From: Lachnospiraceae bacterium | GTDB lineage: Bacteria > Bacillota > Clostridia > Lachnospirales > Lachnospiraceae | Length of the DNA: 55,993 bases | Assembly (NCBI GenBank): GCA_018056425.1 | Contig: JAGPFR010000014.1 | Span: forward strand, 1 to 55,993 | Reading direction: 5' to 3' | In this document: positions 2,177-8,862 of the stretch, piece by piece | How the letters are laid out: each line of letters starts with the position of its first letter | How positions within the stretch are numbered: the first letter of the stretch is position 1 | The notes under the pieces: model-generated | Told to the model about the DNA's origin: nothing | The model's input: the letters and a program-made list of their open reading frames with translations, nothing else | Database searches by the model: none | Position numbers and translations under genes: made by a program

Positions 2177-3562
2177 TTAGTTCTCCTTACCTTTTATCTT
2201 TTTAAAGTGCTCTTTGATCTTTATTTCATACCCCTGACCGTCCGGTCTGAAAAACTCCCTGCCGTCGAGTTCATAGGGCAGATACTGCTGATTGCAATAG
2301 TGGTTCGGGAAATCATGTGAATACTGATATCCGACTCCGTGTCCCAATTTAGCGGCTCCCTTATAGTGCGCATCCTGAAGGTGCGTGGGGATCGGAAGAC
2401 TTCCCGATGTCCTTACCTCTTCAAGTGCTTCGTCAACCGCACAGATGGCTGCATTTGACTTGGGCGCCGTTGCTACGTAAATAGCCGCTTCCGACAAAAT
2501 AATACGGGCTTCCGGCATTCCTACTTTTATAACAGCTTCAAAAGCAGCATTTGCAACAACCAGTGCATTTGGATCTGCCATACCGACATCCTCTGCCGCA
2601 CAGATCACGATACGTCTTGCGATGAAGCTTACTTCCTCACCCGCATCGAGCATCCTTGCCAGGTAGTACACGGCAGCATCCGGGTCCGAACCTCTCATAC
2701 TCTTTATAAAAGCGGAGATCGTATCGTAATGATTGTCTCCGGTCTTATCGTATCTTACCGCTTTCCTCTGGATACATTCCTGAGCAACATCCAGGGTTAT
2801 ATGTACTCCGGGCTTCGAAGTATCCACAGGACCGGTTACGGTCTCGGGATAAGCATCCGGTGCCTTGCTGTCAGGATCCGTAGTAAGGATTGCAAGCTCA
2901 AGCGCATTAAGTGCATGCCTTGCATCACCGCCAGCGACATCTGCGATAAAATCCAGCGCATCACTGTCGATGTAAGGATTATATGCAGCCATGCCTCTGT
3001 CCGAATCCGTTACCGCGATCTTCAGAAGAGTTTTGACATTATCCATACTGAGGGGCTTAAGCTCAAATATCATCGAGCGGCTTATAAGAGCACCGTTTAC
3101 CTCAAAGTAGGGGTTTTCTGTCGTAGCACCGATAAGTGTTACCGTTCCGTCTTCAACAAAGGGAAGGAGGAAATCCTGCTGTCCTTTATTGAAACGATGT
3201 ATCTCGTCGATAAAAAGTATCGTCTTCTGAGAATTCATTCCGAGGATGCTCTTGGCTTCGTTAACCGCATCCTCCATATCCTTCTTGCCCGCGGTAGTTG
3301 CGTTGATCGATATGAATCTCGATCTTGTCGCACCCGCAATAACCTTGGCAATAGTGGTCTTGCCTGTTCCGGGAGGTCCGTAGAGAATAAGCGAACTTAT
3401 CTTATCAGCCTTGATCGCACGGTAAAGGAGCTTGCCCGGTGCAATGATATCTTCCTGACCGACTATCTCTTCCGGAGTCCTGGGCCTCATCCTTGCAGCG
3501 AGCGGACTTTCGGTCTCTTTATTTTTATCAGACATGTATTCAAAAAGATTTATCTGATCCAT
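2177..3562 (-). CDS. rarA: Replication-associated recombination protein A (AAA+ ATPase)
   Basis: RarA/MgsA is a clamp-loader-like AAA+ ATPase that acts at stalled replication forks. The 461-residue product has Walker [10 protein letters not shown] at 62-70, Walker [10 protein letters not shown] near 116-124, sensor-1 TTENP, and the C-terminal MgsA tetramerisation region ending in a [17 protein letters not shown] tail. The start overlaps the end of murD by 23 bases. The first ATG is used because no better ribosome site precedes the internal Met10. Confidence 0.95.
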
Positions 3563-4823
3563 GCTTAACTACCAATTCTCCGAATGCGTCTCCGCGTTCT
3601 TCAAAATTCTTGAAATATCCGTATGATGCGGCAGCGGGCGACAGCACGCAGCCCCTGCCCTTTTGTGTGATCTCGAATGCTTTTTTGACAGCACCTTCAA
3701 GGTCTTCTTCGTAATATACATTCGAAAGTCTGCCACCCAGCTCTTCCGTGATCCTCTTGCCCGTAGCATACATGCAGATGAATTTATACTCCGCATGATT
3801 TTTCATAAAGTCTTCAAGAACGGAATATGAGATTCCTCTGTCCATTCCTCCCACCAGAACAACCTCAGCATCGGGTATGCTCGTTATCGCGCTTATCGCA
3901 GCTTCGGGAATGGTTGATATCGAATCGTCATAGAAATTTATGCCTTCATATGTTCCGATATTTTTCATTCTGTGAGGCAGAGCCTCAAAAGAATGCAGAC
4001 TCCTTAGCACGTCTTTTTCCGGTATTCCGAAATTTTCCATGCATATTCTTTTTACGAAATATGCATTGATCAGGTTGTGCTCGCCGTAAAGACCAAGCTC
4101 TATTCCCTTAAGCTCACCCTCTGTGGGAATGACTCTTATCTGCTCGGACTCCGATCTTATCTCGGGTACGTTCTCTCCGATGTATGCCTTATCTCCGGCG
4201 ACCTGCCTGTTTACGATATGGCTCTTAGCCGCAAAGTAAGCATCCATGCTTCCGTAATAATCAAGATGCTCTTCGTACAGATCCAGGAATACGGAAATGT
4301 GTGGAGCGGTCTTGGCATCCTTTAGCTGATGGCAGCTGAGCTCAAGTACCACTATACTGTCGCCCTGTGCATCATCATAATAGTCAAGACAGGGAAGTCC
4401 GATATTTCCCGCAAGGATCACTTTCTTACCCGAAGTTTCGCCAAGGACATGTGCAAGCATCGATACGGTCGTGGACTTGCCCTTTGTTCCGGTAACTCCG
4501 ATTGTCTTATCCTTAAACGTGCTTATAAATATTTCTGTCTGCGAAGTGATCCTGGCAGAGATTTCCTCTATCTTTTTTAACTCCTCTTCGGAAAAAGAAT
4601 CCGACTTGGGAGGCCATACTATTCCGGGACTTTTGATGATGACATCCGCATCGCCCGCTGCTCCTTTAAGCATCTCTTCCGGTGTTGCGGATGATATGGA
4701 AACGGATGCGGGTTTTACATGACTTTCGAGCCATCTTTCGGACGACTGACCCTCTCTTCCGTATCCCCATATCAGTATTTTTTTATCGTTAAACAGATGG
4801 TCTGTTTTCATAATTATTTCCAT
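3540..4823 (-). CDS. murD: MurD-family UDP-MurNAc-L-alanine:glutamate ligase, with variant glutamate-site motif
   Basis: Cytoplasmic Mur ligase that adds glutamate to UDP-MurNAc-L-Ala. The ATP loop GTKGKST is at 112-118, ELSCHQL at 161-167, EEHLDYYGS at 184-192, HRM at 284-286 and SPAAASYGYFKNF at 395-407. Canonical MurD enzymes carry NDSKATN before the C-terminal domain; here residues 299-305 read DDSISTI, so the conserved Lys is Ile. This suggests a MurD2-like enzyme using L-Glu, an idea strengthened by the MurL candidate at 7513-8862. Substrate choice is inference. The gene is outside any dcw cluster. Met5 (4811) is an alternative start. Overlaps rarA by 23 bases. Confidence 0.9.
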   Translation of the reverse strand: MEIIMKTDHLFNDKKILIWGYGREGQSSERWLESHVKPASVSISSATPEEMLKGAAGDADVIIKSPGIVWPPKSDSFSEEELKKIEEISARITSQTEIFISTFKDKTIGVTGTKGKSTTVSMLAHVLGETSGKKVILAGNIGLPCLDYYDDAQGDSIVVLELSCHQLKDAKTAPHISVFLDLYEEHLDYYGSMDAYFAAKSHIVNRQVAGDKAYIGENVPEIRSESEQIRVIPTEGELKGIELGLYGEHNLINAYFVKRICMENFGIPEKDVLRSLHSFEALPHRMKNIGTYEGINFYDDSISTIPEAAISAITSIPDAEVVLVGGMDRGISYSVLEDFMKNHAEYKFICMYATGKRITEELGGRLSNVYYEEDLEGAVKKAFEITQKGRGCVLSPAAASYGYFKNFEERGDAFGELVVKHGSDKSF

Positions 4824-4884
4824 TCCGGGCGAAAAAGCCCATAATTCAATATATTATACCCTATTTGCGACCTATTTGGTAGCA

Positions 4885-4918
4885 AAAAAGAACGGCCTGC
4901 TTCAGGCCGCCCTTTTTT
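4885..4918 (-). terminator. Rho-independent terminator after the L,D-transpeptidase gene
   Basis: Stem CGGCCTG/CAGGCCG (4893-4899 with 4903-4909) with a 3-base loop, flanked by A-rich and T-rich runs on both sides. It can stop transcripts from the transpeptidase gene; the opposite direction carries no gene pointing at it. Confidence 0.85.
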
Positions 4919-4953
4919 AAGGAAAAGATTATTATTTGTTTATGAACAATAGG

Positions 4954-7464: not shown

Positions 7465-7471
7465 TCCTACA

Positions 7472-7503
7472 ATAAAACAGCCGACAGGTTTTATCCTGCC
7501 GGC
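7472..7503 (-). terminator. Terminator of the murL candidate
   Basis: Read on the minus strand: stem GCCGGCAGG/CCTGTCGGC (7480-7503) with loop ATAAAA, followed by TGTTTTATT. Loop and inner stem are the same as in the yerB terminator 70 bases away. Confidence 0.8.
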
Positions 7504-7512
7504 TTTGGTTGT

Positions 7513-8862
7513 TTATTTAATTGCTTCTTTAAGTCTTCCCACGAATTCCTCGGGTACGGAGTTTTCGTCGCACCACTCACCTAAGAGTTCTTCAAGAGGT
7601 GCCGCCTGCATGGCGAGGATCTCTTTTTCGTAGCGGTCTGTGAGCTTGCTCTTTCCGCCCTTCTTGATGAAATCGGTGAGGCAGCTTGCAACTTCACTTC
7701 TGGTTCCCACGCATTCGAAGGGCTTGTTTTCGTTGAGTCCCACAAGCTCTCTGAAATCTTCATCAAGCGATTCCTTATCGAGGAGCTTTTCTCCGAAGAT
7801 TGAAACGACCTCATCTTCAGGCAGGAAAGAAGACAGAATGATGTAAACGAAGAGGCACTTGGGACATGCACAGCACCATACGCCTTTCTTGCTTCCTCTG
7901 TTACATGATCTGAATACCCTGAAATAATCGCCGCCCTTCTTTGCAAAGATTCCTGCGATCTGAACCTCGGTAAAGGGTCTTAAGAGTGAGAAATAATGAA
8001 TATCGGAATCGATAAGTCCTTCGATATATTCATCGAAATCCTCTTCGAATTCATAGCTCTTTGAATACTGGTGATTAACCTTGGTCCCGGGAACGGTGCT
8101 CTCATTTGCACTGGTCTCGTTAGAAAGAGCGATGTACTTAAAGCCGCACAGGTAAGCCGTAATAACGGCAGAAAAAGCAAATACTGCGGAGATGGGAATA
8201 TGACCATTCATATACCCTTCCTCGTTCATCTTGATAACCTGAGGATCGAGAGTACGCTTAGCGGTATAGACGCCCTTCTTGTGTGAGCACTTTTCGATGA
8301 CGTTCGTCGCAGTGGCGTTTTCATTTACGACGTAAGTCGTGATGTCCTCACCCTTTAAAAGCTCAAGGCTTACGACGGAGTCCTTACCGCCGCCTACGGG
8401 AACAAGGCATCCCGAATAAGTCTTATCGTCATGAAGAACGGAAGGTTCATCATCCGTTGTGGTAGTGCACTCGAATCTTACCAGTCTGTCCGCGGATACG
8501 GTAATACCGTTTCTGTAGAGGAATTCTCCTAGTCCGTTATAGTAAAGCTTTCTCCACCAGTCCTTCTGGGCTGCGGATAAAGTGCCGCACTTAATTACAA
8601 CCTTCTCGGGGCAGACGGTCTTGTAATAGCTGATGGTTTCAACCATTCCGAGAGAGAAAATAAGAGTTCTCAAAATAGGATCTTCAAGATCTGCCTTTCC
8701 CTCGCCCAGAGGAAATCTCCACTCGGGCATGAAATCGCGAAGTCCGGGAATGGAGAATCTGTATCTTACAAAGAGTTCTCCGTCCTCAATCCTTGTTTCG
8801 AATTTTCTGTATTCGAAGGTGTCATATAATTTTCTGAGATCATCAAATTGTTTCTGTGACAT
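7513..8862 (-). CDS. murL: MurL-type UDP-MurNAc-L-Ala-L-Glu epimerase (candidate)
   Basis: A 449-residue cytoplasmic protein resembling MurL, which in Xanthomonas epimerises the terminal L-Glu of UDP-MurNAc-L-Ala-L-Glu to D-Glu using ATP. Visible are the PP-loop-like GGGKDSV at 157-163, SNETSANES at 247-255, a VNHQYSKSYEFEEDF block at 262-276, FRSCN near 317 and the Cys cluster WCCACPKC at 329-336. The start is the ATG at 8862, preceded by CGGAG. The ATG at 8901 overlaps the -10 box and has no ribosome site. The gene is 2.7 kb from the variant MurD. The assignment is by remembered family motifs; activity is unproven. Confidence 0.75.
   Translation of the reverse strand: MSQKQFDDLRKLYDTFEYRKFETRIEDGELFVRYRFSIPGLRDFMPEWRFPLGEGKADLEDPILRTLIFSLGMVETISYYKTVCPEKVVIKCGTLSAAQKDWWRKLYYNGLGEFLYRNGITVSADRLVRFECTTTTDDEPSVLHDDKTYSGCLVPVGGGKDSVVSLELLKGEDITTYVVNENATATNVIEKCSHKKGVYTAKRTLDPQVIKMNEEGYMNGHIPISAVFAFSAVITAYLCGFKYIALSNETSANESTVPGTKVNHQYSKSYEFEEDFDEYIEGLIDSDIHYFSLLRPFTEVQIAGIFAKKGGDYFRVFRSCNRGSKKGVWCCACPKCLFVYIILSSFLPEDEVVSIFGEKLLDKESLDEDFRELVGLNENKPFECVGTRSEVASCLTDFIKKGGKSKLTDRYEKEILAMQAAPLEELLGEWCDENSVPEEFVGRLKEAIK

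Follow-up and report, generated by a model that had tools for sequence, protein, structure and literature searches.

How does a bacterium obtain the D-glutamate (D-Glu) of its peptidoglycan when no glutamate racemase is found in its genome? The question is raised by two genes in a 55,993-nucleotide stretch of DNA (hereafter the window), which spans positions 1 to 55,993 of the forward strand of contig JAGPFR010000014.1 in the assembly of a Lachnospiraceae bacterium (GCA_018056425.1). One gene encodes a MurD-family ligase and the other a relative of the epimerase MurL. On the basis of sequence comparisons and a structure model, we estimate a probability of about 0.88 that this organism has replaced glutamate racemase by two enzymes acting together, a ligase resembling MurD2 and an epimerase resembling MurL. 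The host is most likely a member of the Lachnospiraceae, related to rumen strains, that follows an L-glutamate (L-Glu)-first route. Specifically, the window ligase would attach L-Glu first, the MurL-like protein would then flip the attached L-Glu to the D-form, and MurE would take the epimerised product next. We infer both enzyme activities and the order of these steps, as well as the QueC-like chemistry by which MurL may act.

Residues of the window ligase

The ligase gene (positions 3540 to 4823, minus strand) encodes a protein of 427 amino acids (aa) that scores 269.8 bits against TIGR01087, above the cut-off of 211.95. As MurL-linked ligases also exceed this murD cut-off, TIGR01087 cannot separate MurD from MurD2. 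Individual residues are more telling. The original prediction, made from the letters of this DNA, had described a variant motif in the ligase and had called for an alignment of residues 295-310. On alignment to Escherichia coli MurD, codons 299-305 (3909 to 3929) indeed read DDSISTI where the canonical enzyme has NDSKATN, and the murL-linked MurD of Xanthomonas sacchari has NDSISTT. The E. coli residue K319, which is the Lys of NDSKATN, corresponds to I302, and N322 to I305. Codon 185 (4269 to 4271) is Glu at the place of E. coli D182, and codon 329 (3837 to 3839) is Arg at the place of K348; the X. sacchari ligase likewise aligns with E206, I339 and R367. The window ligase therefore has the L-Glu-type residues E185, I302 and R329 and retains none of D182, K319 and K348 of the canonical D-Glu enzyme, while the ATP loop (G115, K116 and S117) and the C-terminal S400 and F407 are kept, as had been reported.

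Published mutagenesis gives these positions their meaning. According to PMC8788868, E197 and R358 of Xanthomonas oryzae MurD2 occupy the places of E. coli D182 and K348, and the E197D/R358K exchange converts MurD2 to a D-Glu enzyme. The same paper describes a random screen in which Streptococcus mutans MurD K330T and, correspondingly, E. coli MurD K319T accept L-Glu. The earlier claim that a conserved Lys and Asn are both lost is thus correct as an observation, and its Lys (with D182 and K348) is the subject of these experiments; the Asn is not.

A residue rule for two groups of ligases

We compared two sets of ligases, namely 87 distinct sequences from genomes with MurL (95 when identical copies are included) and 26 controls from MurL-less genera of the same order. 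Ile at position 319 together with Arg at 348 (E. coli numbering) occurs in 87/87 of the former and 0/26 of the latter, and this combination separates the two groups. The controls have Asp, Lys and Lys at 182, 319 and 348 in 25 of 26 cases. Arg at 348 does not suffice by itself to tell them apart, as the solved MurD structure 3lk7, which is annotated as a D-Glu ligase, carries Arg at this place and keeps Lys at 319.

In a tree of 63 ligases, comprising 35 of L-Glu type (one orphan among them), the 26 controls and the enzymes of E. coli and X. sacchari, a branch with support of 100/98 splits the L-Glu-type sequences, X. sacchari and one control from E. coli and the other 25 controls; the long branches of X. 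sacchari and E. coli make the precise placement of these two uncertain. The displaced control, L064 (genome G046; locus L188, 6436-8627), has D182, Q319 and K348 and lies on the MurD2 side in an unresolved fork. In G046, murI directly precedes this murD, occupying the usual place of murL, and apparent ddl and murF genes follow. L064 would either preserve the condition that preceded the switch or have reverted to it.

A MurL relative with a predicted QueC-like fold

The second gene (7513 to 8862, minus strand) encodes 449 aa from the ATG at 8862, or 462 aa when read from 8901. It contains all the features on which its assignment had been proposed: the PP-loop motif GGGKDS (residues 157-162; 8377 to 8394), SNETSANES and a Cys cluster (C320, C330, C333 and C336; 7855 to 7905). 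All 49 aligned relatives share GGGKDS and three Cys of the cluster, and 48 of them also have the fourth; by likeness to QueC, the cluster is a probable zinc site. The 462-aa reading matches the NCBIfam model NF041275 (MurL_Xanthmoales) with 279.8 bits (E 3e-83, 381 residues), and its alignment with X. sacchari MurL shows 36% identity across 318 aa.

According to two reviews, PMC8788868 and PMC5808125, no known domain is assigned to the MurL epimerase. The structure model of the window protein (predicted local distance difference test score, pLDDT, 93.9) has a fold like that of QueC-type PP-loop ATP pyrophosphatases, so that both the fold and the motif of these enzymes are present. By sequence, the likeness of MurL to QueC and QatC is marginal (hhalign probability 5.9%, P 0.0064), and the Pfam QueC model PF06508 matches 6 of the 49 family members at E <= 1, the best at 0.06; the protein is accordingly not filed as QueC. 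A search with the single protein sequence gave no solved relatives at E <= 0.6, and the MurL profile gave weak PP-loop matches to TtuA (E 7e-4). The modelled fold would be fitting for AMP-forming activation of a carboxylate. A role as a known defence protein was considered and rejected, since PADLOC gave no match at E <= 1.

Arrangement of the locus

The original prediction placed the two genes 2.7 kb apart, and this distance is correct; its account of genes and motifs also stands, except that it omitted the strand, which is minus for both. Between them lie genes for a YkuD L,D-transpeptidase (PF03734; 4954 to 5991, minus strand) and a DUF3048 protein (PF11258/PF17479; 6203 to 7363, plus strand). 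Both also intervene in the nearest congeners, where the orientation of ykuD is not constant. A hairpin followed by T residues, noted by eye at about 4884-4911 on the minus strand in the gap from ykuD to murD, suggests that murL and murD of the window are probably transcribed separately.

Distribution and linkage of murL and murD

A scan of 84,980 species genomes with the MurL alignment yielded at least 590 candidate stretches, of which at least 567 were confirmed by tblastn; the counts of named loci below rest on the best 80 of these. By their NCBI labels, these 80 fall in Bacillota (77, including 75 Clostridia), Bacteroidota (2) and Chloroflexota (1), and the Clostridia include 54 Lachnospiraceae and 8 Oscillospiraceae. 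Many loci come from metagenome bins, so odd taxon labels may be binning errors. The MurL loci include Pseudobutyrivibrio, Butyrivibrio fibrisolvens 16/4 and Ruminococcus flavefaciens, and P. xylanivorans DSM 14809 is among the species that carry MurL. The statement in the original prediction that MurL is rare outside Xanthomonas is not borne out by these numbers. PMC5808125 also mentions orthologues of low similarity from cyanobacteria, a fungus and an amoeba; elsewhere 'murl' can denote glutamate racemase, as it does in PMC7215955 and PMC2650404.

The gene murD lies downstream of murL on the same strand at 78 of the 80 named loci. The spacing is within -125 to +76 bases at 73 loci and about 2.7 kb at the three loci of the window clade (L090-L092); at L089 and L116 the contig ends soon after murL. 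Two loci carry a single open reading frame in which MurL is fused, N-terminally, to MurD2: L114 (3186-5759, 857 aa) and L152 (1524-4226, 900 aa), which are 42% identical to each other.

A MurL relative is also found on a Pseudonocardia plasmid (L178, 4854-6254), with no annotated MurD in the examined stretch, and similar relatives lie on two further Pseudonocardia plasmids. Judging from these copies, MurL-family proteins may have other jobs too.

Glutamate racemase in relatives

The genomes of 38 of the 80 named loci were searched for glutamate racemase; at least two of them (G026 and G027) also belong to the comparison set described below. None of the 38 has a racemase above the cut-off, and 16 have a weaker match. 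The strongest of these (genome G081; L169, 1468-2262) is a full-length protein of 264 aa scoring 95 bits against a cut-off of 146.65. It keeps the Cys of the first site and has DGYY where four racemases above the cut-off have GCTH, and thus looks degenerate. In this MurL-bearing genome, its gene adjoins a D-Ala-D-Ala-ligase-like gene.

The comparison set comprised 59 genomes, 31 of the genus (including that of the window) and 28 from outside it. MurL was found in 27: 26 of the 31 in the genus and the single-contig G055 of another family. Glutamate racemase scores above the cut-off in 0/31 genus genomes versus 24/28 outside the genus, which argues that its loss is not a gap in one assembly. Of the 31, 16 have weak racemase matches of about 25-36 bits. 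Outside the genus, the genomes without a racemase above the cut-off are G031, G036, G053 and the MurL bearer G055. The original prediction proposed an L-Glu-first route in a Gram-positive, and the L-Glu-type residues, MurL in 26 genus genomes, MurI above the cut-off in none and the linkage at 78 loci all favour it, with the activities themselves predicted. An apparent absence of MurD in G027 and G055 was traced to the E 1e-40 threshold, as murD lies near or adjoining murL in both.

In an even draw of 398 genomes from the phylum, racemase exceeds the cut-off in 363, and MurL occurs in the window's own genome only. MurL at the scale of the phylum is uncommon and clumped.

Sources of D-Glu and alternative explanations

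A search for murI and for a second murD had been suggested as a check. No match to the glutamate racemase model TIGR00067 was found in the window's genome at E <= 1, and a single MurD scores above the cut-off. Five other Mur-ligase matches fall far under it and were rejected as a second murD; two are typed as MurE and MurF, one, an incomplete gene at the edge of C30, is a putative MurC, and the other two lie on C3 and C6. The genome's one class-IV aminotransferase (Aminotran_4) protein is a branched-chain transaminase and was rejected as a D-amino-acid transaminase.

The best-surviving alternative, which we nevertheless consider improbable, is that the ligase has kept D-Glu as its substrate, supplied by an Asp/cysteate-type or other racemase, and that the MurL-like protein has another job. 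The genome does contain one Asp/Glu-superfamily racemase (G000:C81:6043-6750; PF01177, 145.6 bits), whose gene forms a row with murE and a gene of ATP-grasp type (L179, G000:C81:4807-8301), and genomes with neither MurI nor MurL indicate that other D-Glu sources exist. This racemase scores only 34 bits to glutamate racemase, compared with 210-217 to models of amino-acid/cysteate racemases, and the solved structures that match it best are those of aspartate racemases. The row possibly serves addition of D-Asp, or another D-amino acid, to peptidoglycan; the weak racemase match of G027 is found in a gene row of this type. The Arg of 3lk7 at the K348 place might seem to favour use of D-Glu by the window ligase, yet 3lk7 retains the Lys at 319 that is lost in all 87 ligases of MurL-bearing genomes. 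Continued use of D-Glu would also leave the adjacency and fusion of murL and murD unexplained.

That the MurL-like protein acts on a different target is less probable still: three genus mates have an L-Glu-type ligase with neither MurL nor MurI above the cut-off, but MurE and D-Ala-D-Ala ligase of the window's genome score above ordinary family cut-offs, and MurL is present throughout most of the genus, while two other lineages have it as a fusion with the ligase.

Several observations weigh against replacement of glutamate racemase by the ligase and the MurL-like protein. The genome that holds the Asp/Glu-superfamily racemase is an assembly of 2.56 Mb in 84 contigs that is 90.8% complete, and its MurF-like protein, although best matched by murF, is under the cut-off (224.7 versus 288.6). 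The window protein does not reach the NF041275 equivalog cut-off of 700, nor does any protein in the 59 genomes, and it is therefore filed as a MurL relative rather than as a MurL_Xanthmoales equivalog. Foldseek alone gave no matches to the MurL model at E <= 1e-3. Position 182 is Glu in 57 and Asp in 30 of the 87 ligases from MurL-bearing genomes, so Glu at 182 is neither universal nor obligatory. Genome G053 (99% complete) has neither MurL nor MurI above the cut-off, yet its ligase has Asp, Lys and Lys, so that a missing MurI is no proof by itself; in the phylum draw, too, 34 of the 397 genomes other than that of the window have neither.

The three genus mates (G007, G016 and G025; L080-L082) also count here. 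The search for MurL in them used the family model, the profile and tblastn with working positive controls, and gave a single, negligible 12-bit match, in G007. Their ligases form a close group (80-93% identity), and murL is missing from the murD locus at the place where sister genomes carry it. Either murL is on unbinned contigs or another factor takes over its work. A 509-aa gene beside MurD of G007 was rejected as the epimerase, as it matches chemotaxis-receptor models (below their cut-offs). In the two remaining genus genomes without MurL, G010 and G019, murD is also not found (at E 1e-40), and these are probably assembly gaps.

Tentatively, and with somewhat less than even confidence, we suggest a wider account, in which many Clostridia of the gut and rumen have lost glutamate racemase and use the L-Glu-first pathway as their main-line wall route (at least 567 loci), MurL is an epimerase derived from a carboxylate-adenylating enzyme of QueC type and is sometimes fused to the ligase, and one sub-clade swapped MurL for another epimerase.

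Comparison with known systems

The known MurD2-MurL route is defined by a ligase for L-Glu and by MurL epimerisation that converts ATP to AMP and proceeds from L to D only. It is known from X. oryzae, and orthologues from Micromonospora and Salinispora tropica have been assayed (Feng et al. 2017, as cited in PMC8788868). This 2021 review limits the route to relatively few genera, namely some gamma- and alphaproteobacteria and rare actinobacteria, and regards it as a narrow-spectrum drug target. The route itself is therefore already known; what is added here is how widely it occurs among Clostridia, along with the residue rule, the fused forms and the fold resembling QueC, as judged against the open-access literature, and prior publication is possible. 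If the route is normal in many commensal Clostridia, drugs against it would strike gut commensals, inhibitors of glutamate racemase would spare them, and it would be a mistake to annotate these enzymes as ligases for D-Glu. The combination of Ile at 319 and Arg at 348 would provide an easy genome test of the Glu chirality used, and the QueC-like fold offers a testable mechanism for the epimerase.

QueC and QatC, the PP-loop ATP pyrophosphatases that MurL resembles in its modelled fold, differ in substrate and outcome from those proposed for the window protein. The canonical MurD and MurI pair shares with the window the Mur ligase family model, which the window ligase also passes, but D182, K319, N322 and K348 are all altered in that ligase and its genome is without MurI. 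The closest likeness is to Xanthomonas MurD2 and MurL: Glu, Ile and Arg stand at the D182, K319 and K348 places in X. sacchari as in the window ligase, X. sacchari murL is directly before murD, as the two genes are adjacent at 73 of the 80 loci, and glutamate racemase is absent from both systems. The differences are that the host of the window belongs to the Gram-positive Clostridia, that its MurL relative has 36% identity to X. sacchari MurL and falls under the curated cut-off, and that in the window clade murL is separated from murD by two other genes and by a hairpin that, by eye, resembles a terminator, while fusions of the two occur in other lineages.

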